From NCBI GenBank assembly GCA_913042035.1, contig CAJWIN010000004.1, forward strand, positions 1 through 41,898: DNA of 41,898 nucleotides. The letters are read 5' to 3'. The DNA comes from an uncultured Gammaproteobacteria bacterium. Lineage in GTDB: Bacteria; Pseudomonadota; Gammaproteobacteria; Poriferisulfidales; GCA-002705445. Shown in pieces: positions 10,079 to 35,618 of the stretch. A program made the position numbers and the translations under genes. The notes beneath the pieces were generated by a model. That model was not told the origin of the DNA and searched no databases. It saw nothing but the letters and a program-made list of their open reading frames with translations. Every line of letters starts with the position of its first letter. Within the stretch, counting starts at the first letter, position 1.

Positions 10079-10413
10079 TTGAGTCGACTGTACAATCGCT
10101 TTATTTATAAAGAGGAAAGTCTGGGCTCCAAAGAGTAGAGTGCCAGGTAACTCCTGGGAAGTGTGAACTTACGGAAAGTGCAACAGAAAGTAAACCGCAA
10201 TAGATATTGTAAGGGTGAAATGGTGAGGTAAGAGCTCACCGCAACTATAGAGATATCGTTGGCAAGGCAAACCCCACTCGGAGCAAGGCCAAATAGAAAA
10301 GTTAAAGTGTTACTCGCGCTGCTTTTGGGTAGGCCGCTAGATATATTTGGTGACAAATATACAAGATTAATGATTGTATGAAACAGAACCCAGCTTATAG
10401 GTCGACTCGCCTA
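10079..10413 (+). ncRNA. rnpB: RNase P RNA (rnpB), bacterial type A
   Basis: This is the catalytic RNA of RNase P, which trims the 5' ends of tRNA precursors. Nearly universal blocks are present in order: GAGGAAAGTCTGGGCTCC, AGAGTGCCAGGTAACTCCTGG, GTGCAACAGAAAGTAAACCGC, GGTAAGAGCTCACCGC, CGGAGCAAGGCCAAATAG, GGGTAGGCCGCT and ACAGAACCCAGCTTAT. The ends pair: GAGTCGAC (10081-10088) with GTCGACTC (10401-10408) forms P1, and TACAATC (10091-10097) with GATTGTA (10373-10379) forms P2. Relative to E. coli, a C-to-T change in CTGGG is matched by a G-to-A change in CCCAG, a compensatory pair in P4. At about 335 bases it is a little shorter than the E. coli RNA. Exact ends are inferred from P1. Confidence 0.96.
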
Positions 10414-10539
10414 ATACTATCGAAAATTAATAATAAAAACTTAATGTTATTTATTAAGTAAAGCGTATACATCTATGATTTAATCCGTAGTTTTAAAAAA
10501 CATATATTTATGTAAGTTATTGACTAATATAGAAAAATC

Positions 10540-10592
10540 TTGACAAAAATAAAAAATGTTGCATTATTGTGGCTAATTGTGGATTTTTGTGG
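10540..10592 (+). promoter_or_regulatory. mraZ/dcw promoter with three MraZ-type boxes
   Basis: TTGACA (10540-10545) is followed 16 bases later by CATTAT (10562-10567), a plausible sigma-70 promoter for the dcw cluster. Overlapping and following it are three direct repeats of TTGTGG starting at 10567, 10577 and 10587, an exact ten-base period; the last runs on as TGGGG. MraZ of E. coli represses its own operon by binding three TGGG-containing repeats at the same period, so these are probably the autoregulatory MraZ sites. The rest of 10414-10603 shows only a weak seven-base hairpin (10439-10459). Confidence 0.7.
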
Positions 10593-10603
10593 GGAAATAA
10601 GGA

Positions 10604-11056
10604 ATGTTTAAAGGAATTAGTAACCTAAACATAGATACTAAAGGAAGAGCTTCAATGCCTCAACGATACAGAAATGATTTTTGTATCAAAAATAAATGCA
10701 AACTAGTTATTACCGCTGACAAGGATAAATGTTTATTAATTTACACGCATAATAACTGGAATATTATTGAAAAAAAATTATCTAACTTACCATCATATAA
10801 TAAAGAAGCAAGATTTATACAGAGATTAGTGATCGGGCACGCAACAGAATCTGAAATAGATTCTCAAGGAAGATTCCTAATTCCGAATCCATTGAGAGAA
10901 TATGCTGGAATACAAAAAAAAATAATACTTCTAGGACAGGGAAGTAAATTTGAACTGTGGTCAGAAACTATTTGGAATAAAAAAATGAAGTCATGGCTAG
11001 AAAGTGAAAATATAGACGAAGCTAAAAATAACGCTCTTACAGAGTTAAAACTATAG
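10604..11056 (+). CDS. mraZ: Transcriptional regulator MraZ
   Basis: MraZ (150 residues) is a small AbrB-like DNA-binding protein that usually forms a ring and represses the dcw operon it heads. Two copies of the family motif are visible: LNIDTKGRASMPQRYR near residues 8-23 and EIDSQGRFLIPNPLREY near residues 84-100, each with the D-x-x-G-R core. Length and position are normal, directly before rsmH. Three TTGTGG repeats in its promoter fit autoregulation. The ATG at 10604 is used because it precedes the first motif by only a few residues. Confidence 0.97.
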   Translation: MFKGISNLNIDTKGRASMPQRYRNDFCIKNKCKLVITADKDKCLLIYTHNNWNIIEKKLSNLPSYNKEARFIQRLVIGHATESEIDSQGRFLIPNPLREYAGIQKKIILLGQGSKFELWSETIWNKKMKSWLESENIDEAKNNALTELKL

Positions 11057-11065
11057 GAATATATA

Positions 11066-11995
11066 ATGGGCTTATCTCATAATCCAGTTTTATTGAATAG
11101 CGTGATAGAAGGTTTAAATATAATTCCTAATGGCACGTATATAGATTGTACTTTTGGAAGAGGAGGTCATTCTAAAAATATTTTAGAGAAAATTGGTAAT
11201 GAAGGTAAACTAATTGCTATCGATAAAGATGGCGAAGCTGAGTCATATGCCATAAGTAATTTCACAAATGATAAAAGATTTTATTTTGAAAGAAATAATT
11301 TTAGTAATATAAAACACATAATAGAAAAATACAATAATTCTCAAAAAGTGAATGGAATACTTCTCGATTTAGGCGTTTCATCTCCTCAATTAGATAACCC
11401 AAAAAGAGGCTTTAGTTTTATGAAAGAGGGTCCAATAGATATGAGAATGGATACATCAAGTCATATGACAGCACTATTATGGTTACAAGAAGCAAACGTC
11501 AATGAAATAAGTGATGTGTTAAAGCAGTACGGTGAAGAAAAATATTCACGAAGAATTGCAAAATTAATTAAAAAATCATTAGAGAGTGATTCACTAAAAA
11601 CAACAATTGATTTATCAAAACTGATTAATAAATGCTATCCGAAAAGCGAATCAAGAAAGAAAAATACTGCAACAAGAAGCTTTCAAGCAATAAGGATATT
11701 TATAAATAAGGAATTAGAAGAGCTCGAAAAAATTTTGGAAGATATTTTAGCATTAGTCGAAAAGGGAGGAAGAATAGTTATTATAAGCTTCCATTCATTA
11801 GAAGACCGTATTGTCAAAAACTTTATTAATAAACACTCAGACGGAAAAAATATAATTAGTAAGCTTCCAATAGCAAATTTGAATAAAAACTTAAGCCTTA
11901 AAAAGATTAAATTACCTTTAAAAGCCTCTGAGGTTGAAATTAAAAAAAATATAAGAGCAAGAAGCGCAAGAATAAGAGTGGCTGAAAAAATATGA
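11066..11995 (+). CDS. rsmH: 16S rRNA (cytosine-1402-N4)-methyltransferase RsmH
   Basis: RsmH (MraW, 309 residues) N4-methylates C1402 of 16S rRNA, the same nucleotide that the nearby RsmI modifies on its ribose. Family motifs include SHNPVLLNSVIEGL, the SAM-binding YIDCTFGRGGHS, LLDLGVSSPQLDNPKRGFSF, GPIDMRMD, ATRSFQAIRIFINKEL and IISFHSLEDRIVK. The length is standard. It begins nine bases after mraZ and its stop overlaps the ftsL start (ATGA), consistent with one operon. Confidence 0.97.
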   Translation: MGLSHNPVLLNSVIEGLNIIPNGTYIDCTFGRGGHSKNILEKIGNEGKLIAIDKDGEAESYAISNFTNDKRFYFERNNFSNIKHIIEKYNNSQKVNGILLDLGVSSPQLDNPKRGFSFMKEGPIDMRMDTSSHMTALLWLQEANVNEISDVLKQYGEEKYSRRIAKLIKKSLESDSLKTTIDLSKLINKCYPKSESRKKNTATRSFQAIRIFINKELEELEKILEDILALVEKGGRIVIISFHSLEDRIVKNFINKHSDGKNIISKLPIANLNKNLSLKKIKLPLKASEVEIKKNIRARSARIRVAEKI

Positions 11996-12264
11996 GTAAT
12001 TTTAAAATATATATGATTATATTTCTAATAATTTCAAATATTTCTTTATCATTTGGAATAGTGTGGCTTGAGCACTTAAATAGATCTCAATTTAGGGAGC
12101 TACAGTTTTTATCAAATCAAAAATATATTTTAAAAACTGAGTGGAGAAAGGCACGAGTAGAAAAAGGAAAATATGATTCTTTAAGTATGATAGAGAAAGC
12201 TGCACAAGAAGAACTTAAAATGTTTGTTCCAAAGAAGAGGACGTTAATAACAATCAATGAATAA
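11992..12264 (+). CDS. ftsL: Cell division protein FtsL
   Basis: A 90-residue bitopic protein fitting FtsL by size, position and layout: a short cytoplasmic start, one transmembrane helix (about residues 5-25), then a periplasmic coiled-coil segment (about residues 30-75). FtsL joins FtsB and FtsQ to activate FtsWI at the septum. The segment ending MIEKAAQEELKMFVPKKR resembles the family's C-terminal conserved region. Sequence conservation in FtsL is low, so the call rests mainly on its location between rsmH and ftsI and on topology. Confidence 0.88.
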   Translation: MSNFKIYMIIFLIISNISLSFGIVWLEHLNRSQFRELQFLSNQKYILKTEWRKARVEKGKYDSLSMIEKAAQEELKMFVPKKRTLITINE

Positions 12265-14014
12265 AAATTTCGAAAAAATTAGGAGAGTAGATGTATTGAT
12301 GTTTTTTATATTAATATCAATCTTAATAATAATATTTAGATGCTTTAATCTACAATATACAGAAGCAAAAAAATACTCTAGTTTAATAAGTGGAATTGAA
12401 ATAAAAGAACATATTATTAAAACAAGTAGAGGCTCTATTGTAGATAAAAATAATATTGTTTTAGCAGAAAGTATTCTAATGGATAGCTTGATAGTTACAA
12501 ATACAAATGATTTTATAGAAAATAAAGATGATATAGAAAAATTATGCAATATATTAAATATAAGCTGTAGAAATTTACTAAGTAAAATAGAAAATAGAAA
12601 AAATAAAAATTTTAAATATCTTAAAAGATATATTCATACTGACACAACAAAAGAAATAAAAAAACTAAATCTAAAAGGCATCGGATTTATTAAAGAGTAT
12701 CAAAGATATTATCCTGAAGGTGAATCAATTTCATCTTTAATTGGTCTTTTAGATTTTCATCATAATGGGCAAAGCAGCTTAGAAAAATCTTTCAATAAAA
12801 CTTTATCAGGCATAGATGGAAAAAAGAAAGTAATGCGAGATCGCCAAGGCAAGGTGGTAAAAGAAATTAAAAAAATAAAAAAACCTATAGAAGGACAAAA
12901 ATTATCTTTAACTATTGACGCAAGATTACAATATATTGCTTACAGAGAGCTGAAAAAACAAATAAATAATGTAAATGCAAAATCTGGCTCTGTTGTAATA
13001 ATGGATACAACAAATGGGGGTATTCTAGCCGCTGCAAGCTACCCAGCGTATGACCCAAGTGATAGAAATACATATACAAACGCAAAAGAGAGAAATAGAG
13101 TTATTATAGATGCATTAGAACCTGCTTCGACAATAAAACCATTTGTTTTAGCTGCAGCACTATATTCGAAAAAAGTAAATTTAAATGACAGCTTTGATAC
13201 AAATCCTGGTTATAAGGTTTGGGGAAATAAAACATATGAAGACATTAAAAATTTTGGAGAACTTACTTCAGAAGGAGTAATTATAAATTCCAGTAATATT
13301 GGCAGTATAATGATTTTAGAAAAAATTAATAAGAAAATCTTTTATGATTTATTAGAACATGTAGGGTTTGGAGAAAAAATTAATTTGAATTTCCCCTCTG
13401 AGGTTGAAGGCTACTTGCCTCACCACAGCGAATGGAGAAAGTCAGATGTTAGATCACTTGCTCAAGGCTATCGTTTAAAAGTTACCCCACTTCAACTTGC
13501 AAAAGCTTACGCTGCTATTGCAAATAACGGTTTGGTATTAAATCCGAAACTGATTAAAAGCAAAAATATTCAAATTTACGAAAATACAAAATATAAAAAA
13601 GAATTTAAGCAAATCAAAAACGTAATAAAAAAAGTTGTCCAAAGTGGTAGTGCGAAAAAAGCAGCAATTCAAGGTTATACTGTTGGCGGAAAAACTGGAA
13701 CTGCTAAATTATATATTGGTGGAAAACAAAAAAATAAATATAGCGATAAAAGCCATACCGCACTATTTGCCGGCATTACTCCTTTAAATAACCCCAAATT
13801 ATCAATAGTTGTAGTTATAGATCAACCACAAAGTGAAATATACTTTGGCGGCTACTTAGCAGCGCCTGTTTTCAAAAAAATTGCAACAGATTGCTTAAGA
13901 ATTTTAAATATAAGTCCTGATAATATTGTGGATTACCAAAAACAAGTTTCGCAGGAAGTTGAAAATCAAAATAAGTTATCTTTAAAAAACCCGGAGGTAA
14001 ATAATGTCTTTTGA
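12257..14014 (+). CDS. ftsI: Septal peptidoglycan transpeptidase FtsI (PBP3)
   Basis: FtsI (585 residues) is the class B penicillin-binding protein that crosslinks peptidoglycan at the septum. It has an N-terminal membrane helix (about residues 12-32), the dimerisation/pedestal domain starting with TSRGSIVDKNNIVLAES, and the transpeptidase domain with all three penicillin-binding motifs: S291-TIK in EPASTIKPF, SSN in NSSNIGS, and KTGT in VGGKTGTAK. Length is normal. It overlaps ftsL by eight bases. Its 3' end contains the GGAGG (13993-13997) ribosome binding site for ftsZ, an unusual neighbour here since murE would normally follow. Confidence 0.97.
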   Translation: MNKNFEKIRRVDVLMFFILISILIIIFRCFNLQYTEAKKYSSLISGIEIKEHIIKTSRGSIVDKNNIVLAESILMDSLIVTNTNDFIENKDDIEKLCNILNISCRNLLSKIENRKNKNFKYLKRYIHTDTTKEIKKLNLKGIGFIKEYQRYYPEGESISSLIGLLDFHHNGQSSLEKSFNKTLSGIDGKKKVMRDRQGKVVKEIKKIKKPIEGQKLSLTIDARLQYIAYRELKKQINNVNAKSGSVVIMDTTNGGILAAASYPAYDPSDRNTYTNAKERNRVIIDALEPASTIKPFVLAAALYSKKVNLNDSFDTNPGYKVWGNKTYEDIKNFGELTSEGVIINSSNIGSIMILEKINKKIFYDLLEHVGFGEKINLNFPSEVEGYLPHHSEWRKSDVRSLAQGYRLKVTPLQLAKAYAAIANNGLVLNPKLIKSKNIQIYENTKYKKEFKQIKNVIKKVVQSGSAKKAAIQGYTVGGKTGTAKLYIGGKQKNKYSDKSHTALFAGITPLNNPKLSIVVVIDQPQSEIYFGGYLAAPVFKKIATDCLRILNISPDNIVDYQKQVSQEVENQNKLSLKNPEVNNVF

Positions 14015-15335
14015 ATTAATCGATACTAGAGAGCAAAAAGCTGACATAAAAGTTGTTGGTGTTGGAGGTTGTGGAAATAATGCAATCGAATATATGATTC
14101 ATAATAAAGTTAGCGGAGTCGATTTCATATGTGTAAATACCGATGCACAAGATTTAAAAAATAATCCAGTAAGCGATAATAGAAAATGTAATATAGGGCA
14201 TAGTATTACAAGAGGCCTAGGCGCAGGCGCAGATCCTGATATTGGCAGACAGGCAGCAATTGAAGATAGAGATAAGCTAAAAGAATCAATAGAAAATTGC
14301 GATATGTTATTTATTACTGCTGGTATGGGTGGTGGAACAGGCACCGGTGCATCTCCAGTAATTGCAGAGCTAGCTAAGGAATTAGGTATATTAACAGTGG
14401 CAGTCGTCACAAAACCTTGGGAGTATGAAAAGAAAAAAAGAATGTTTAATGCTGAAAGAGGTATAGAAGAATTAAGAAGTAAAGTTGATTCATTAATTAT
14501 AATTCCAAATGATAAACTTTGTACAGATGATGACATGCCATTATCTGAAGCAAAAAATCAGTCTAATGCAGTTCTTGAAAGAGCAGTTGGTGGTATAGCA
14601 GAATTAATAACAAAGCCTGGCGAAATTAATCTTGATTTTGCTGATGTAAAAAGTGTGATGTCAAATGCAGGGTCAACAATGATGGGTAGTGGAATTGGTG
14701 AAGGCATAGATAGAGCAGAAGACGCTATTCAACAGGCAATTGCAAGCCCATTACTAGAAGATGTTGATGTAAAAGATGCAAAAGGTTTACTTATAAATAT
14801 AACTTCTAACGGAAGTTTAACTAATGGAGAGTTTAAAGCTATTGGTGATCATATTGGAAGTTTAGTTGATGAAGAGGAGGCAGATGTAATTGTTGGCACA
14901 ACAATTGATGAGTCACTAGAAGACAAAATTAAAGTTACAGTTGTTGCAACAGGAATGAGAAATTCTCAAGTTGAAGAAAGTGAGCCTCATAAAGTAGATA
15001 TTGTTTTAGATAATATAAATAATAACTTAGAGGAACCTTTGTTTAACGCATTAGGTACAAATAACACAGAAGAAATATATGTATTTAGCAAAGAAAAACA
15101 AGAAACAGCTTTAGTGCATGAAAATGAAAAATTATATCAAGAAGAGGAACTTACAAATTATGATAAACAGCAAAAATATAAACAAAGTTTAAATTTAGAA
15201 GTTACTTCAAAAGATGATACAAAAGATGAAAAAATTAATAATGACAATAATATTAAACATAAAAAAAATAGTAACGGTGAGTTGGATTTAGATTTTTTAG
15301 ATATTCCAGCATTTTTAAGAAAACAAGCTGATTAA
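14004..15335 (+). CDS. ftsZ: Cell division GTPase FtsZ, at an atypical position
   Basis: FtsZ (443 residues) is the tubulin-like GTPase that forms the Z ring. The GTP-binding domain shows VVGVGGCGNNAIE, FICVNTDAQDL, the tubulin signature GMGGGTGTGAS, and the catalytic T7 loop NLDFADVKSVMSNAGSTMMG. A long, acidic, low-complexity linker (about residues 325-428) leads to the conserved C-terminal peptide LDIPAFLRKQAD, which binds FtsA and ZipA; the protein therefore looks fully functional. It normally sits between ftsA and lpxC. Here that gap holds only a promoter, while ftsZ overlaps ftsI by 11 bases and uses a strong GGAGG site, suggesting translational coupling with ftsI. Whether another ftsZ exists elsewhere cannot be seen. 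Confidence 0.97.
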   Translation: MSFELIDTREQKADIKVVGVGGCGNNAIEYMIHNKVSGVDFICVNTDAQDLKNNPVSDNRKCNIGHSITRGLGAGADPDIGRQAAIEDRDKLKESIENCDMLFITAGMGGGTGTGASPVIAELAKELGILTVAVVTKPWEYEKKKRMFNAERGIEELRSKVDSLIIIPNDKLCTDDDMPLSEAKNQSNAVLERAVGGIAELITKPGEINLDFADVKSVMSNAGSTMMGSGIGEGIDRAEDAIQQAIASPLLEDVDVKDAKGLLINITSNGSLTNGEFKAIGDHIGSLVDEEEADVIVGTTIDESLEDKIKVTVVATGMRNSQVEESEPHKVDIVLDNINNNLEEPLFNALGTNNTEEIYVFSKEKQETALVHENEKLYQEEELTNYDKQQKYKQSLNLEVTSKDDTKDEKINNDNNIKHKKNSNGELDLDFLDIPAFLRKQAD

Positions 15336-15347
15336 AGGGAGGGTTTT

Positions 15348-15482
15348 GTGAAAAATATAATGTACTATGGAATAATTGTAATAGGATTTACTTTACTTAT
15401 AGGTTGCAATACTGTTGATGGAATAGGAAGAGATATTTCGGCTGCAGCTGAATGGGTAAGCGGTGCAGCTAACGAAGAATAA
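15348..15482 (+). CDS. Entericidin-family small lipoprotein
   Basis: A 44-residue protein: a hydrophobic signal (MKNIMYYGIIVIGFTLL), a lipobox LIGC with lipid-modified Cys20, then CNTVDGIGRDISAAAEWVSG. The CNT-x-x-G-x-G-x-D-I pattern followed by a small amphipathic alanine-rich helix is that of the entericidin A/B family, small lipoproteins that in E. coli form a bacteriolytic/antidote pair. The start is GTG at 15348, behind the strong GGGAGG at 15338-15343. It begins 12 bases after ftsZ and ends 17 bases before murE, so it is expressed within the cell-division operon, a place where this family is not normally found. Its role here is unknown. Confidence 0.85.
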   Translation: MKNIMYYGIIVIGFTLLIGCNTVDGIGRDISAAAEWVSGAANEE

Positions 15483-15499
15483 CAAAATTATAAAATTTA

Positions 15500-16957
15500 A
15501 TGAAATTAAATAATCTTATTAATGATAAGAGATTATCTAAAAATAATATAAATATATTAGGATTAAGTGATAATAGTAAAGAAATTAAAAAAAATTATAT
15601 TTTCTTTTTTAAAAATACAAAAAATTCTGATACGACCCATATTTCAGAGGCTATAAATAAGGGCGCTAAAGTCATAATTTACAAAGTCACAAAGTATTTC
15701 AATACAAAAAAATTTCATAACCAGTGTATTTTTTACAAAGTGAAAGATATTGAAAAATCAATGTCATTAGTTTCTAAAAAGTTTTATAAAATCAAAAAAA
15801 ATTCTATTAAAATATATGGTGTAACTGGTACAAATGGCAAAAGCTCGGTTGTATCTTATATATCACAGCTCTTACAAAATAATAATGAGGAATGTGCAAT
15901 AATTGGAACATTAGGCAGTGGAGTACCTCCAAAAATAAAAAATACTAGCTTAACAACCCCAAATATCATTAATATATATAAGAGTATTTGTGAATTCCAA
16001 AAAAAAATTATCCCTAATCTTGCGATGGAAATTTCATCTCATGGTCTTAGCCAAAAGAGAGTTTATGGCCTAGATTTCGATACAGTTATATTTACAAATT
16101 TAACTAAAGAACACTTAGATTATCATAAAAATATGAAAAATTATTTTAACACTAAGTTAAGTTTATTTACTGATTATAATAATAAAAAAAAAGTTATATC
16201 AATCGATAACTATTATGGAAAGAAAATATTTAATATATTTAAAAAAAAAGATTATATTAGAACAGTATCTTTAAAAGATAAAAGCGCAGACTTTTATGCC
16301 AGCGATATTATATATAATGAAAATGGCCTAAAATTTAATATCAATTCAAAATATGGTGTAAAAGAAATTTCAACAAAATTATATGGTGAATTTACTATAG
16401 AAAATATATTACTTGCCATTGCGTCGTTAGCAAAAAATAAAAAAAAATATAACTTATATGTGGAAAAAATATGTGAGTTAAAACCATTAGAGGGCCGTCT
16501 AAATAAGTATGAAAGAAAAAAATTCCCAATAGTATTTATTGACTATGCACATACTCCGGATGCCATTCGTAAAATACTAGTTTCAATTAAAAAGCACTTT
16601 CCGAATAAAGAAATAATTACTTTATTTGGATGTGGAGGCGATAGAAGTTACGAAAAGAGGGAATTAATGGGTATGATTGCTGATAAATATTCAGAAAAAA
16701 TTATTATAACAAATGATAACCCAAGAAGTGAGAATCCTAGAAAAATAGCAGAACAGATTGTTAATGGTATAAATAAAAAAAGTAATTTTAAAATAGTATT
16801 GGACAGAAGAAAGGCAATTATAGAATGTGTTAGTAGGAAAAATATAGACAGAATAGTGCTAATATTAGGGAAAGGGCATGAAAAAAAACAAATCCTAAAA
16901 GAGAATATAATAGACTTTTCTGATGAGAAAGAAGTGCTAAGGGTATTTAAATTATGA
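15500..16957 (+). CDS. murE: UDP-MurNAc-tripeptide synthetase MurE (meso-DAP type)
   Basis: MurE (485 residues) adds the third amino acid to UDP-MurNAc-L-Ala-D-Glu in the cytoplasm. The ATP site is GVTGTNGKSSVVSYI; the central domain has TTPN and EISSHGLSQKR; the C-terminal domain has FIDYAHTPDAI and TNDNPRSENP. The DNPR sequence is the family's meso-diaminopimelate specificity motif, so the peptidoglycan should be of the usual Gram-negative DAP type. Length is normal. Its stop overlaps the murF start. It is markedly AT- and lysine-rich compared with the preceding ftsZ. Confidence 0.96.
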   Translation: MKLNNLINDKRLSKNNINILGLSDNSKEIKKNYIFFFKNTKNSDTTHISEAINKGAKVIIYKVTKYFNTKKFHNQCIFYKVKDIEKSMSLVSKKFYKIKKNSIKIYGVTGTNGKSSVVSYISQLLQNNNEECAIIGTLGSGVPPKIKNTSLTTPNIINIYKSICEFQKKIIPNLAMEISSHGLSQKRVYGLDFDTVIFTNLTKEHLDYHKNMKNYFNTKLSLFTDYNNKKKVISIDNYYGKKIFNIFKKKDYIRTVSLKDKSADFYASDIIYNENGLKFNINSKYGVKEISTKLYGEFTIENILLAIASLAKNKKKYNLYVEKICELKPLEGRLNKYERKKFPIVFIDYAHTPDAIRKILVSIKKHFPNKEIITLFGCGGDRSYEKRELMGMIADKYSEKIIITNDNPRSENPRKIAEQIVNGINKKSNFKIVLDRRKAIIECVSRKNIDRIVLILGKGHEKKQILKENIIDFSDEKEVLRVFKL

Positions 16958-26230: not shown

Positions 26231-26926
26231 ATGACACTTGGAAAAAAAACTGCATACATTTCAATAATAATAACAATATTTATAATAGTATTAATTATTA
26301 ATGATAAAATTAGTGATACAAAGATTTATTTTCAAATAAGTGATATTAGATTAGGGCAAAAATCTTTGAATGTTAATGAAGCCGAAATTTTTAAGGTAGC
26401 CGAAAAATATTTGAAAAATAAGTCGTTTTTTAATATAAATTTAGACTACTTAAAAAACTCTATAGAAAAAGTCGCTTGGGTTAAAAATGCTTATATTAGA
26501 AGATCATATCCAAATGAAGTTATAATATTTATAGAAGAATATACTCCTGTAGCAGTATGGAATAATGATTCCTATATAAGTGAAAACGGTTATATTTTTT
26601 CAGCAAATAAAATTGAAAAAAAATTACCAAAAATAAGTTCTTATAGCAACAGAAATATTATTATTTTTGAATATTTTTCTTTAATTTTAGATGGAATACG
26701 AAAAAATAAACTTAATGATAAAGTTTTGCTAATCAAGGAAAATGAAATTAGGTCTTTAACAGTATTATTAGAATCAAATATAGCAATTAAATTTGGATCA
26801 AAAAATATTAAAGAAAGAATAGGTATATTTTTTAAAGCTTATAAAACACTAAAAACTAGCGATTTAAAAAAAATACGGTATATTGATATGAGATACTCAA
26901 ATGGCTTTTCTATTGGCTGGAAATAG
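26231..26926 (+). CDS. ftsQ: Cell division protein FtsQ
   Basis: FtsQ (231 residues) bridges cytoplasmic and periplasmic divisome parts. A short cytoplasmic start, a membrane helix (about residues 8-25) and a periplasmic POTRA domain are visible, the latter with FFNINLDYLKNSIEKVAWVK followed by NAYIRRSYPNEVIIFIEEYTPVAVW, the best conserved FtsQ segment. The C-terminal beta domain contacts FtsB/FtsL in the family. It is four bases after ddl and 12 before ftsA. Confidence 0.94.
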   Translation: MTLGKKTAYISIIITIFIIVLIINDKISDTKIYFQISDIRLGQKSLNVNEAEIFKVAEKYLKNKSFFNINLDYLKNSIEKVAWVKNAYIRRSYPNEVIIFIEEYTPVAVWNNDSYISENGYIFSANKIEKKLPKISSYSNRNIIIFEYFSLILDGIRKNKLNDKVLLIKENEIRSLTVLLESNIAIKFGSKNIKERIGIFFKAYKTLKTSDLKKIRYIDMRYSNGFSIGWK

Positions 26927-26938
26927 AGTTGATAAATT

Positions 26939-28165
26939 ATGATTAAAAATGAAAAAAACTTATTAGTTGGGCTAGACATAGGAACTACTTTTATTAAAGC
27001 TATAGTCGGGATTGTCAACGAAGATAATGAAATTGATTTTCTTGGTGTAGGTAAATCTAATTCTTTAGGCATGAAAAGAGGAGTAGTAATAGATATTAGT
27101 GCAACAGTTCAGTCTATTGAAAAAGCAGTAGAGGAGGCAGAACTTGTTAGTGGTTATAAAATAAGTTCAGCATTTGTAAGTATTTCGGGAAAACATATCC
27201 AAAGTTTTAATGCAACAGGAAGAGCTGCAATCTCTGATAATAAAGAGGTTTCTATTCAAGATTTGAAATCTGTGGAAGAATCAGCTAAAGCTATTACATT
27301 ATCAAATGATCAGGAAATACTTCACGTTTTGCCAAAAGATTACGAAATTGATGGGCAAGATGGAATAAAAGTTCCCCTAGGAATGTCTGGAATAGCACTT
27401 GATGGGAGATATCATTTAGTTACTGGAGCAAAGAATGCTAGAGACAATATTGAGAAGTGTGTGAAAAAATGTTCAATTAATCCGCAGAGTGTAGTTTTAG
27501 AGCAACTTGCATCTAGCTTAGCTGTTTTGACTAAAGATGAAAAAGATCTTGGTGTGTGTTTAGTGGACATAGGTGGAGGAACAACTGACATAGCAATATT
27601 TAGTAACGGAGCAATAGAATATACTTCATCTGTACCATTAGGAGGAGATCAAGTTACTAATGATCTTGCTCAAGCATTAAAGACATCAACTTATAACGCT
27701 GAAGAACTTAAAATCACACATGGATTTATTTCGAACGAATTATCAAGTGATGACATTGTAGAGGTTCCGGGTGTGGGAGATAGACCACCTAGGTCAATAC
27801 AGAAGTATACTTTAGTTGAAGTAATGAGTTTGCGTTACCAAGAAATTTTTAATTTTGTAAATGAAAAAATTTTACAAAGCGGTTTCGAAGAAAAAATTCC
27901 TGCAGGCATTGTATTGACTGGCGGAAGCTCTAAATCTGAAGGTCTTGCAGATCTTGCTGAAGAGATATTTCATAAGCAAGTTAGAGTAGGTATCCCACAA
28001 TATTTATATGGTGGCTCAGAAGATATAGTTAAAAATTCTGAATACGCTACAAGTGTTGGCTTACTATTATATGCTCAAAAGGAGATAAATCCGCAATTAG
28101 AGCCAGTAAATGAAGATTTTTCATCTGCTGCGAAAAAGCTTTTTAAAAGGTTATTTGACGATTAA
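26939..28165 (+). CDS. ftsA: Cell division protein FtsA (actin-like)
   Basis: FtsA (408 residues) is the actin-family protein that tethers FtsZ to the membrane. Phosphate-binding motifs are LVGLDIGTTFIKAIVG near the start and CLVDIGGGTTDIAIF at mid-protein, with IVLTGGSSKSEGL as the adenosine motif. The 1C subdomain lies between residues about 85 and 160. The C-terminus KKLFKRLFDD is the amphipathic membrane-targeting helix. In most relatives ftsZ follows directly; here lpxC follows after 88 bases with promoter-like sequence. Confidence 0.97.
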   Translation: MIKNEKNLLVGLDIGTTFIKAIVGIVNEDNEIDFLGVGKSNSLGMKRGVVIDISATVQSIEKAVEEAELVSGYKISSAFVSISGKHIQSFNATGRAAISDNKEVSIQDLKSVEESAKAITLSNDQEILHVLPKDYEIDGQDGIKVPLGMSGIALDGRYHLVTGAKNARDNIEKCVKKCSINPQSVVLEQLASSLAVLTKDEKDLGVCLVDIGGGTTDIAIFSNGAIEYTSSVPLGGDQVTNDLAQALKTSTYNAEELKITHGFISNELSSDDIVEVPGVGDRPPRSIQKYTLVEVMSLRYQEIFNFVNEKILQSGFEEKIPAGIVLTGGSSKSEGLADLAEEIFHKQVRVGIPQYLYGGSEDIVKNSEYATSVGLLLYAQKEINPQLEPVNEDFSSAAKKLFKRLFDD

Positions 28166-28195: not shown

Positions 28196-28239
28196 TTGGC
28201 ATATTATATGCATCAAAAATGATATAATTAATATATAAT
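28196..28239 (+). promoter_or_regulatory. Probable lpxC promoter and operator-like palindrome
   Basis: The 88-base ftsA-lpxC gap contains a perfect palindrome GCATAT-T-ATATGC (28199-28211) followed by two TATAAT hexamers (28223-28228 and 28234-28239). No -35 box at ideal spacing is clear. It suggests lpxC has its own promoter, possibly controlled at the palindrome. ftsZ would normally occupy this gap. Confidence 0.4.
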
Positions 28240-28253
28240 ACAAATAAAAAATC

Positions 28254-29177
28254 ATGATTAATCAAAGAACAATAAAAAATACAATAAAAGCAACAGGTAT
28301 CGGTCTACATACGGGGAAAAAAATTACATTAACTTTAATACCTGCTCCCTCCGAAACAGGAATAATATTTACTAGAACTGATGTTAATCCAAAAGTAGAG
28401 ATTAAAGCATGTCCAAAAAATGTAGGGGACACCACTTTATCTACCACACTAATTTCAAAAAAAATAAAAGTTTCAACCGTTGAACACCTTCTCTCGGCAA
28501 TAGCTGGCTTAGGTATTGACAATTTATATATTCACTTGGACGGCCCTGAGGTTCCAATAATGGATGGAAGTGCTGGCCCATTTGTTTTTCTTTTGCAGTC
28601 TGCAGGAATTAAAGAACAGAGTAAATCAAAGAAATTTATAAGAATATTAAAGCCAATAGAGGTTAAAGATGAAGATACAGGTAAATGGGTTAAATTTGCT
28701 CCTTTTGAAGGTTTTAAAGTTGCGTTTACAATTGGATTTGATCACCCAGTATTTAATGGCAAAACCCATAGTGCTGTATTAGATTTCTCAACTGTATCTT
28801 TTGTTAAAGAAGTTAGTAGAGCAAGAACATTTGGTTTTATGAGAGATGTCGAGTTATTAAGGTCAAAGAATCTAGCATTAGGGGGAAGTCTAGATAATGC
28901 AGTAGTCGTAGATGATCATCGGGTTTTAAATGAAGATGGTCTCAGGTATGAGGATGAGTTTGTGAAGCATAAAATTCTTGATGCAGTAGGAGACCTGTAT
29001 TTGCTCGGAAAAAGCTTAATAGGATCTTTTGAAGGTTTCAAATCTGGACATGATCTTAACAACAAATTGCTACGCAAATTATTAGAAAATAAAGATGCCT
29101 GGGAAGAAGTTGGTTATAAATCTTCTGATGATCTTCCAATAAATTATATGGATGCTTATAGCAAAGCTGATATTTAG
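28254..29177 (+). CDS. lpxC: UDP-3-O-acyl-N-acetylglucosamine deacetylase LpxC
   Basis: LpxC (307 residues) is the zinc deacetylase performing the committed step of lipid A synthesis, so the organism should make a lipid-A outer membrane. Motifs: [32 protein letters not shown] (zinc histidine in EHLLSA), [12 protein letters not shown], the [15 protein letters not shown] segment with the zinc HxxxD pair, and FKSGHDLNN with the catalytic histidine. Length is normal. The ATG at 28254 is reached from its own probable promoter. Confidence 0.98.
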
Positions 29178-29465
29178 TCATATTATTGGATTTCTGATAA
29201 TTTTAAATTTAATTTTGGTAAGTTTTTTAGTCAACAGATTGTAAAATTTTGAATTCACGTCTTTCAAAATCTCATGCTGATAATTTCTTGCTAAGTTCAA
29301 ATTCGAGCTATTTGTAGCCCCTAAAACTAAGATATTCTCAATAATGTTGCATGCATAACAAGTATTTTGTGAATTTGTATATTTAACAATATAATTTGTA
29401 ATCATTTCTAGTATTTTAGCTTTTTCTAATATACTAATATCAATTTGGCTACTAAGTTTTTTCAT
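29178..29465 (-). CDS. DciA-like (DUF721) protein, short
   Basis: A 95-residue protein on the minus strand between lpxC and the M23 peptidase gene, the position where many gammaproteobacteria carry the DUF721/DciA gene. DciA loads or assists the replicative helicase DnaB in bacteria lacking DnaC. The region NTCYACNIIENILVLGATNSSNLNLARNY resembles the DUF721 core, in which a strand-turn segment precedes residues that contact nucleic acid. The start is put at the ATG at 29465 (MKKLSS); a longer reading to 29534 would run into the divergent peptidase start. The call is based on context and weak similarity; the protein is shorter than the usual 140-170 residues. Confidence 0.65.
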   Translation of the reverse strand: MKKLSSQIDISILEKAKILEMITNYIVKYTNSQNTCYACNIIENILVLGATNSSNLNLARNYQHEILKDVNSKFYNLLTKKLTKIKFKIIRNPII

Positions 29466-29528
29466 ATATATAATATTATTAAAGTAAATTAGTTGTATAA
29501 TAACCATCTTTAATAAATTTGAGAAAAA

Positions 29529-30461
29529 ATGCAAATAGTAATTTTCAAATCCAATAAAAATAAATCTTCATCTTATAAGATTGGAGGACTTTTTTTTATT
29601 TTATCGTTTATTTCTTTATTATTTTTACTAACTTTTATTTTAAGTTCGTCAGTCTATTTTTATGGATATAAAAATGGTTACAATGAATTAAATGAAGACA
29701 GGATAACTGATATAGCTTATTACGAAAAAGAAATTCGTCAAATTAAATCAGAAAATAAAAATAAAATAGATTTTTTTTCTAAAAAACTAATTAGAATTTC
29801 TTCACAGATACAAATTTTAAATACTATTGGAAATAAAATTTCGAAAATAGCAAAAATAGATAAAAAAGATTTTAATTTTAAAAAGCCAAATTATATAGGT
29901 GGTAAAAATAAGGTTAGCATTGAATTTGAATATAATTCAGATTTTGATAATTATTTAGATAATATTATATTGGGATTAGCAGAAAAACAAGATGATCTAA
30001 TGTATATCAGTAAAGTTATAAATAACTTAGAAATGAAAGAGCAATTTTTTCCAGCTGGTTTTCCCTCTAAAGAAGGTTATATTTCTTCAAATTATGGATT
30101 AAGAAATAGTCCTATATCAAAAAAAGAGCACTTCCATAAAGGCGTTGATATTGCACATAAAATGGAAACAGATATATTATCTCTTGCCGCAGGTAAAATA
30201 ACATTTTCCGGCAAAAAATATGGTTATGGAAATTTGGTGATTATAGATCATTTAAATGGATACACCACTAAATATGCACATAATAATAGAAACTTAGTAA
30301 AGACCGGGGATATTGTAAAGAAAGGCCAATTGATAGCTAAAATGGGCTCTACAGGACATTCAACAGGACCACATATTCATCTTGAAGTTTTAAAAAATAA
30401 TAAAAATATAAATCCAAATAAATTTATTCATTATAAAGAAAAATTTTCTAAAAGAGACTAG
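29529..30461 (+). CDS. M23 family peptidoglycan endopeptidase, membrane-anchored
   Basis: A 310-residue protein with one N-terminal membrane helix (about residues 17-42), a charged coiled-coil-like stretch (about 55-105), and a C-terminal LytM/M23 domain (about 175-300). The zinc site is intact: HFHKGVDIA supplies H-x-x-x-D and GPHIHLEVL supplies the H-x-H; KYAHNN carries the further catalytic histidine. Such proteins cut peptidoglycan crosslinks or, without catalytic residues, activate amidases; the intact site favours an active enzyme. Being between lpxC and secA is typical of gammaproteobacteria. It is divergent from the dciA-like gene. Confidence 0.92.
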   Translation: MQIVIFKSNKNKSSSYKIGGLFFILSFISLLFLLTFILSSSVYFYGYKNGYNELNEDRITDIAYYEKEIRQIKSENKNKIDFFSKKLIRISSQIQILNTIGNKISKIAKIDKKDFNFKKPNYIGGKNKVSIEFEYNSDFDNYLDNIILGLAEKQDDLMYISKVINNLEMKEQFFPAGFPSKEGYISSNYGLRNSPISKKEHFHKGVDIAHKMETDILSLAAGKITFSGKKYGYGNLVIIDHLNGYTTKYAHNNRNLVKTGDIVKKGQLIAKMGSTGHSTGPHIHLEVLKNNKNINPNKFIHYKEKFSKRD

Positions 30462-34285: not shown

Positions 34286-34853
34286 TATAAAAAAATATGA
34301 TGCATATTTTATAACTCCAAATTATTATAATAATATTTCAAAAAATTATTTTAAGAAAATTGAAAAAATTCTAGACCACGGTGTAAAAATACTGCGATTT
34401 AGGTCAAAAAATTTATCTGAAGATCAGTATTGCGTTATCGCAAAAAAAATATATAAACTTTGTCAGAAATATAATTCCTTATTTATTATAAGTGATTTAA
34501 ATAATTTTAGTAAAAATAAGTATTGCGATGGTGTTCATTTAACGTCAAATAATATATTACATGGGAATATCAAAGCAATTTCATCAAATTATATAATTAT
34601 TGGATCATGTCATAACATAAATGAAATAAAAATTTGTAATAAATTAAAATTTAAATTTGTAGTTATTTCTCCGGTACTCAACACTGGAGGTAAAACTGGT
34701 ATTGGTTGGAATAATTTCAAAAAACTTACTGATACGTCGAATATACCAGTTTTTGCCTTAGGAGGAATGGATTATAAAAGAGATATAAATATAGTTAAAA
34801 GCTATGGTGGTGTTGGAATTGCTTCAATTTCTTACTTTTACAAATTATTTTGA
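34266..34853 (+). CDS. ThiE-like (thiamine phosphate synthase-like) protein lacking a MutT domain
   Basis: A 195-residue TIM-barrel protein of the thiamine-phosphate synthase superfamily. Recognisable segments are VKILRFRSKN, YCDGVHLTSNNIL, IIGSCHNINEIKIC, VVISPVLNTGGKTGIGWNNFKKL and VFALGGM. The SCHN and GWNNF forms fit the ThiE-like half of the bifunctional Nudix (MutT)/ThiE-like proteins that follow argJ in many gammaproteobacteria better than classical ThiE. The Nudix half (GX5EX7REUXEEXGU) is absent. The gene overlaps argJ by 20 bases, leaving no room for a remnant, and overlaps the convergent zapD by nine. The role of this ThiE-like domain, here and in the fusions, is not established; true thiamine phosphate synthase activity is an alternative. 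Confidence 0.82.
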   Translation: MQNTEVDIKKYDAYFITPNYYNNISKNYFKKIEKILDHGVKILRFRSKNLSEDQYCVIAKKIYKLCQKYNSLFIISDLNNFSKNKYCDGVHLTSNNILHGNIKAISSNYIIIGSCHNINEIKICNKLKFKFVVISPVLNTGGKTGIGWNNFKKLTDTSNIPVFALGGMDYKRDINIVKSYGGVGIASISYFYKLF

Positions 34854-35618
34854 GGCTGACATTGAAAGTCCAAAATCAAGACTTCCATCAATCACTTTTG
34901 ATAATCTATTATTCCCATATGATGTCTTAAATAGTATATTTATATTTTGTGTACTAACACTAATATCGGGATAAATATTAATATTATTTTCAAGCTTAAC
35001 TCTTATTAGATCAATTTTTGTAGATTTATCAAGTTTTGTTTCAAAAAAAGAATCTGTTATTGAAATATTTTTAAATTTTGAAATAGTCCTTTTAATATCT
35101 AATATTAATATTGATGATAAAAAAATTATATTAAAAGGCGAATACCAATTATTAATATTTTCTATAATCATAGTTTTATTAGAAGAAAGAAAATTTAAGT
35201 ATGCTGGCATATCAAAAAAATTATTGCCAGCAGGTATATGACACTTACTTTTTATTTGCATTAGAAAGTCATTATCACTAATTGACTTAGACGGGTTGCT
35301 ATCGCTATTATTTAGTTCTTCTATATGTGTCTTTACCGCATTATAAAATTCATCATATTTAATTAAATCTATACTTTCATTATCTTTAAGATATTTCAAA
35401 TAAACTAAAATTCTTTCTAATTCTTTAAGAAGTTCCATTTTAATATTTATTCTAAAAATAAAATCTGACATTTCTATTAGTGTAATAATTGAGGACTTAA
35501 TTGACCAAATATCATCTTTCTTCAAAGAGCAATTAAATTTTTCACTCAAGTATTCACATTTAAGAAAATTTCTTACATTTTCCGAAACAGGCTGTTCATA
35601 TATAATAAAATTATTCAT
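34845..35618 (-). CDS. zapD: Cell division protein ZapD (DUF1342)
   Basis: ZapD (YacF, 257 residues) binds the FtsZ C-terminal peptide and bundles filaments at the Z ring. The start IIYEQPVSENVRNFLKCEYL matches the conserved N-terminal segment (FEYPLNERIRTYLRLE-like), and CHIPAGNNFFDMPAYLNFL corresponds to the conserved C(x)IPGG-type segment, followed by a beta-rich C-terminal half. Overall identity looks low. It lies three bases after coaE, the conserved pairing; the small yacG gene often found between or next to them is not present. It shows that the relocated FtsZ here still has a regulatory partner. Confidence 0.9.
   Translation of the reverse strand: MNNFIIYEQPVSENVRNFLKCEYLSEKFNCSLKKDDIWSIKSSIITLIEMSDFIFRINIKMELLKELERILVYLKYLKDNESIDLIKYDEFYNAVKTHIEELNNSDSNPSKSISDNDFLMQIKSKCHIPAGNNFFDMPAYLNFLSSNKTMIIENINNWYSPFNIIFLSSILILDIKRTISKFKNISITDSFFETKLDKSTKIDLIRVKLENNINIYPDISVSTQNINILFKTSYGNNRLSKVIDGSLDFGLSMSASK

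Follow-up and report, generated by a model that had tools for sequence, protein, structure and literature searches.

The window, that is, the whole stretch of 41,898 nt that was analysed, carries a dcw cluster in the order mraZ-rsmH-ftsL-ftsI-ftsZ-lip44-murE-murF-mraY-murD-ftsW-murG-murC-murB-ddlB-ftsQ-ftsA-lpxC; beyond lpxC come a minus-strand ORF of 118 aa, a gene for an M23 peptidase, and secA (Table 1). The canonical gammaproteobacterial cluster runs mraZ-rsmH-ftsL-ftsI-murEF-mraY-murD-ftsW-murGC-(murB)-ddlB-ftsQ-ftsA-ftsZ-lpxC, and the window shares with it the genes, the strand, the order of all genes bar ftsZ, and lpxC, the M23 peptidase gene and secA downstream. When the order was scored against the canonical one, ftsA was not followed by ftsZ, and between mraZ and lpxC every other gene stood in its canonical place; the gene order thus bears out the original prediction of an otherwise canonical cluster in which ftsA is followed directly by lpxC. 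Below, "the family" denotes f1 (12 genomes from two genera) and "the order" denotes f1, f2 and f3 together (20 genomes). The family differs from the canonical cluster in having ftsZ between ftsI and murE, a small gene (lip44) inserted, ftsA abutting lpxC, and a sigma54-like element in the gap between these two. The window genome shares this arrangement with ten more genomes of its genus and one of a second genus; judging by the isolate names, these relatives include North Atlantic, Mediterranean and Tara-type marine MAGs. The G+C content of the dcw region is 27-30% in f1 and 44-68% in f2/f3, a large shift inside one order. An RNase P RNA gene lies between rsmI and mraZ, and the FtsZ-associated gene zapD is still present downstream of secA. 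The 118-aa ORF that follows lpxC on the opposite strand, ahead of the M23 peptidase gene, had no Pfam match and is conserved family-wide.

Table 1 Positions of the features in the window, with the evidence for each
Feature	Position	Strand	Evidence or remark
RNase P RNA	10080..10413		RF00010, 314.6 bits
Predicted mra promoter, TTGACA-N16-CATTAT	10540..10567	+	Prediction; TTGACA region aligned in 12/12 family genomes
Three GTGG repeats, 10-nt spacing, MraZ-operator type	10569..10596 (approximate)	+	Just downstream of the -10 box; conserved in 12/12 family genomes
mraZ, cluster regulator	10604..11056	+	TIGR00242, 144.3 bits (cut-off 98.35); PF02381
rsmH (mraW)	11066..11995	+	Syntenic homologue in all compared clusters; named by position and homology
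ftsL	11992..12264	+	PF04999, 47.9 bits
ftsI (PBP3)	12257..14014	+	PF00905, PF03717; last codons hold the ftsZ ribosome-binding site
ftsZ Shine-Dalgarno, GGAGGT, within ftsI	13991..13996 (approximate)	+	7 nt upstream of the ftsZ start
ftsZ, relocated, single copy	14004..15335	+	TIGR00065, PF00091 and PF12327 matches; copy count
lip44, 44-aa entericidin-like lipoprotein gene	15348..15482	+	Begins with GTG behind a strong Shine-Dalgarno; the gene next to ftsZ in every family genome
murE	15500..16957	+	Mur ligase domains; NF001126 above cut-off
ftsQ	26231..26926	+	PF08478, PF03799
ftsA, ftsZ no longer next	26939..28165	+	PF14450, PF02491; present in 12/12 family genomes
Sigma54-like -24/-12 element, TTGGCATATTATATGCAT, in ftsA-lpxC gap (former ftsZ site)	28196..28213	+	Strict pattern, family-conserved
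lpxC	28254..29177	+	PF03331, 365.4 bits; 88 nt after ftsA
118-aa ORF	29178..29534	-	Conserved family-wide
zapD	34845..35618	-	Downstream of secA

The ftsZ product has 443 aa and matches the TIGR00065 equivalog model at 387.7 bits (cut-off 295.2), and both PF00091 and PF12327 were above cut-off in the Pfam profile search. Its translation has the GTP signature GGGTGTG, the T7-loop region NLDFADVKSVM and the C-terminal peptide LDFLDIPAFLRKQAD, and the C-terminus is conserved across the family. The TGA stop of ftsI lies inside ATGTCTTTTGA, so that the start of ftsZ overlaps the end of ftsI by 11 nt. The same overlap is found in 11 of the 12 family genomes and is 20 nt in G009 through one base change; the position ftsI-ftsZ-lip44-murE was found in all 12 by dcw synteny comparison. 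A complete FtsZ encoded between ftsI and murE, with an 11-nt overlap and a strong ribosome site, had been predicted, and the ORF coordinates, the GGAGGT motif, the profile matches and the sequence signatures agree with this. Given the conservation of the protein and its single copy, the relocated FtsZ probably forms the Z ring.

The original prediction had overlooked lip44, which lies between ftsZ and murE and is conserved, once per genome, just 3' of ftsZ throughout the family (12/12, L102-L113). Its product of 43-44 aa has a lipobox followed by CNTxDGIGRD[IL]SAAAEWVSG. The nearest named families are the entericidins B (26.9 bits, E 2.8e-6) and A (E 3.7e-5), both below cut-off, the scores being 14.3 vs 23.3 bits for PF08085, 26.9 vs 94 for NF007487 and 23.6 vs 86 for NF007319. 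With EcnA/EcnB (entericidin A/B), lip44 shares the lipobox and the C-N-T-x-x-G-x-G-x-D-I core, but differs from them in falling below the Pfam and NCBIfam cut-offs, in its conserved EWVSG tail and in the placement of its gene beside ftsZ. No lip44 match of meaningful score was found in f2/f3; weak matches occur elsewhere in the class, none of them adjoining the ftsZ positions found in the class search. The role of lip44 is possibly envelope-related.

In published work, the MraZ site is a series of GTG motifs that follows the -10 box (PMC7761207), and repeats of this type were found just past the -10 box and ahead of mraZ in 12/12 family genomes. The gaps from mraZ to ftsA are all 17 nt or less, the first real gap being the 88 nt between ftsA and lpxC, and no terminator-like site was found on the plus strand in 10400-15600. 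With no gap above 17 nt, no terminator-like site and a conserved MraZ-type promoter, ftsZ would be the fifth gene in a unit of probably 17 genes read from Pmra, on one long mRNA under MraZ feedback. The same features make the MraZ-controlled promoter that had been predicted over ftsZ a supported inference. Such control appears workable given the precedent of Burkholderia cenocepacia, in which Pmra alone drives ftsZ (PMC7761207). The family resembles the B. cenocepacia operon in that ftsZ would be expressed from Pmra, with MraZ repeats past the -10 box and without local promoters, and differs in that ftsZ stays distal there, after ftsA (PMC7761207). The MraZ of Neisseria elongata affects the genes at the start of the cluster, up to seven of them when it is overexpressed (PMC9395523).

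Translation of ftsZ starts at the strongest site in the cluster by family medians, with a median Shine-Dalgarno duplex energy of -10.2 kcal/mol, compared with -8.2 for lip44 and -6.8 for mraY; the remaining genes are no stronger than -5.6. Synonymous codon identity in ftsI across the family is 0.88-0.90 over the final ~30 columns vs 0.56 for the whole gene, as expected if the ribosome-binding site and the overlap are under selection. The predicted coupling of FtsZ to FtsI is less sure, since the strong and independently constrained Shine-Dalgarno suggests that ftsZ itself is initiated at a high rate, rather than depending strictly on ftsI translation. Strong ftsZ start sites also occur in some canonical genomes (G014, -11.5; G033, -11.8), so that the site perhaps predates the move and may be older, rather than a proven adaptation to it.

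At the vacated site, the strict sigma54-like pattern was found in the ftsA-lpxC gap of nine of the 12 family genomes (the window and L062, L064-L066, L068, L070, L072 and L073), vs three matches elsewhere in ~524,000 strand-nt. The element is off the strict pattern in the other three, with one base different in G002, degenerate in G006 and absent in G008. A reading of the element as a palindrome was rejected, as its symmetry is not conserved and its GG/GC register is. In three canonical relatives examined (G016, G017 and G018), no such element was found. The gene rpoN was found in 8/12 family genomes. G008 (98% complete) has neither rpoN nor the element, G006 has rpoN yet a degenerate element, and no rpoN was seen in the incomplete assemblies of G000, G002 and G003. 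Because the putative element is conserved in the family and absent from those three relatives, lpxC appears to have acquired a separate type of promoter in f1.

In the remaining eight genomes of the order (f2 and f3), ftsA is followed directly by ftsZ; these families and most of the class having ftsA-ftsZ, the family arrangement is derived. The sample in which adjacency was counted covered the class evenly and added relatives; G056 was excluded because its locus was masked. The two genes were adjacent in about 154 of 159 scored genomes, made up of 116 by paired positions, 31 merged FtsA+FtsZ matches (among the matches listed) and seven inspected directly. The five non-adjacent cases were two family members, G050, G108 and G089. 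The cluster of G089 is dispersed: ftsZ and ftsA lie on separate contigs (L092 and L093), and neither is set in a canonical dcw run. All five genomes of the G108 genus in which ftsZ was located have rsmI-ftsZ-mraZ-rsmH (L091, L126-L128 and L130). As in the family, the cluster is canonical apart from ftsZ, which has shifted to its 5' end; the differences are the insertion between rsmI and mraZ and the genomes, which are 1.6-2.9 Mb and less AT-rich. A second small-genome order, that of G050, which we take to resemble SAR86 (four families, genomes of 0.7-1.8 Mb) without claiming identity, has ftsZ between mraZ and rsmH in f155 and f34 (L074, L114-L125), ~13-14 kb upstream of ftsA; no mraZ was detected in f34. 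There too ftsZ has shifted into the 5' part, to a site ~13 kb ahead of ftsA, but the insertion is at mraZ/rsmH, no link to lip44 was seen, and the sister families f151 and f154 have ftsQAZ before ftsI. In the three genomes of f154 and f151 examined, rsmH and ftsI flank ftsA-ftsZ, along with ftsQ where this was detected, the ftsQ-ftsA-ftsZ block displaced from the 3' end being at 5991-8858 in L131, 14736-17106 in L132 (ftsQ not detected) and 14873-17779 in L133, so that adjacency of the two genes is not the same as canonical position. The different target sites in different orders point to separate moves, at least three and probably four, all of them 5'-ward. What had been taken as a feature of one genome is thus a family-wide trait with parallels in other lineages. 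Lineages with a moved ftsZ often have small genomes (0.7-1.8 Mb), the G108 genus having 1.6-2.9 Mb; a link to streamlining is only a hypothesis, since other small genomes keep the canonical order.

The preferred reading, with a probability of roughly two in three, is that the native ftsZ moved in the ancestor of the family. In this ancestor, one of small-genome marine Gammaproteobacteria, ftsZ would have left its place between ftsA and lpxC and landed between ftsI and murE, and lip44 would have become fixed directly behind it. The gene would then be read as the fifth on the long mRNA from the mraZ promoter, with MraZ feedback acting on it, and its high translation rate would supply the excess of FtsZ over FtsI. 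Promoter-proximal transcription and the strong start site would together set the FtsZ dose in place of the local promoters in ftsQA, and lpxC, released from the ftsAZ unit, would have acquired its own sigma54-like promoter. That the family genomes share one insertion point, the overlap and lip44 as the next gene speaks for a single relocation event.

The move could also be real but of minor consequence, with ftsZ read from its own promoter inside ftsI, MraZ barely mattering and the position an accident kept by descent; this is considered rather unlikely. Local ftsZ promoters are in use in E. coli (PMC7761207), ftsI holds many sigma70-like hexamers, and a second block of raised synonymous identity (0.71-0.78) lies at ftsI columns 492-510, ~80-100 codons before its end. 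In DNA of 28% G+C, however, 33 promoter-like hexamers were observed vs 30.0 in shuffles; the consensus scan did no better than shuffles, and no conserved local ftsZ promoter was seen. Since promoter-like hexamers are as common in shuffles of AT-rich DNA, a local promoter inside ftsI may still be present among them. The strongest nucleotide constraint in ftsI is limited to the ribosome-binding site and the overlap, and the 5'-ward moves of ftsZ in other lineages are not favoured by chance alone.

Acquisition of ftsZ, together with lip44, from another lineage, followed by loss of the native gene after ftsA, is quite improbable. A first FtsZ tree that included long branches was unresolved, and it was rebuilt without them; in the rebuilt tree, the family groups with f2 and f3 (support 91/76). 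Resolution in this single-gene tree is weak and the two genera of the family do not come together in it, but a one-clade constraint was not rejected (p-AU 0.357). The weak support and the absence of lip44 from f2/f3, lip44 having come or arisen with the move, would suit an acquisition. The grouping of the family with its own order speaks against it, as do an FtsZ identity of at most ~58% to any class-sample genome outside the family, with no distinct donor, and a similar level of divergence in FtsA. With the family placed in its own order and no donor lineage evident, the move is read as the native ftsZ relocating, and the arrangement is a fixed, family-level rearrangement, probably of the native gene.

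The MAG to which the window belongs, as contig C4, comprises 720 kb in 37 contigs and is 73.5% complete; a search of this genome found one ftsZ and no second copy. Six family genomes that are at least 92% complete (92-98%) also have one ftsZ each. The family sample consists of MAGs and two records without a MAG label (AG-390-O20 and AG-447-N20). The only second FtsZ match, in G009 (contig C10, L071), was rejected as a family paralogue, being on a foreign contaminating contig whose dcw genes are all at 29-46% identity and on which no ftsA match was found. An assembly chimera, or a paralogue with a canonical copy elsewhere, the two ways in which the original prediction could have failed, gains something from the incompleteness of the window's own MAG but is contradicted by the same junction in 12 assemblies, including the two without a MAG label, by the single ftsZ in the 92-98% complete genomes and by the foreign origin of the G009 copy, so that the position of ftsZ is neither an assembly error nor that of a paralogue and this alternative is refuted as far as sequence data permit. 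The relocation of this essential division gene is thus real and fixed, and probably functional.

Few bacterial gene neighbourhoods are as stable as the ftsA-ftsZ pair, and the usual site of ftsZ is near-universal. Co-transcription, local ftsZ promoters, genomic channelling of division proteins and a link to rod shape have been proposed as reasons, which the rarity of exceptions makes difficult to test. In a literature search that was not exhaustive, no description of this pattern of ftsZ relocation was found, and the arrangement in the family would be an apparently new variant of the known dcw cluster. Similar, apparently independent moves in at least two other lineages suggest that the position of ftsZ matters for the amount of FtsZ. 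More tentatively, and as something possible rather than probable, ftsZ may have left the distal end independently in several gammaproteobacterial lineages, mostly of small genome, for the 5' genes that MraZ controls (behind ftsI, between mraZ and rsmH, ahead of mraZ, or as a ftsQAZ block ahead of ftsI), with selection swapping the local promoters used in larger genomes for a position on one long transcript and a strong start site. The recurrence of similar moves is the most interesting aspect of the finding, and the regulatory effect is inferred. As fixed natural exceptions with intact genes and close canonical relatives, these lineages would allow distance from ftsA, local promoters and position relative to the mraZ promoter to be tested against FtsZ dose and cell size.
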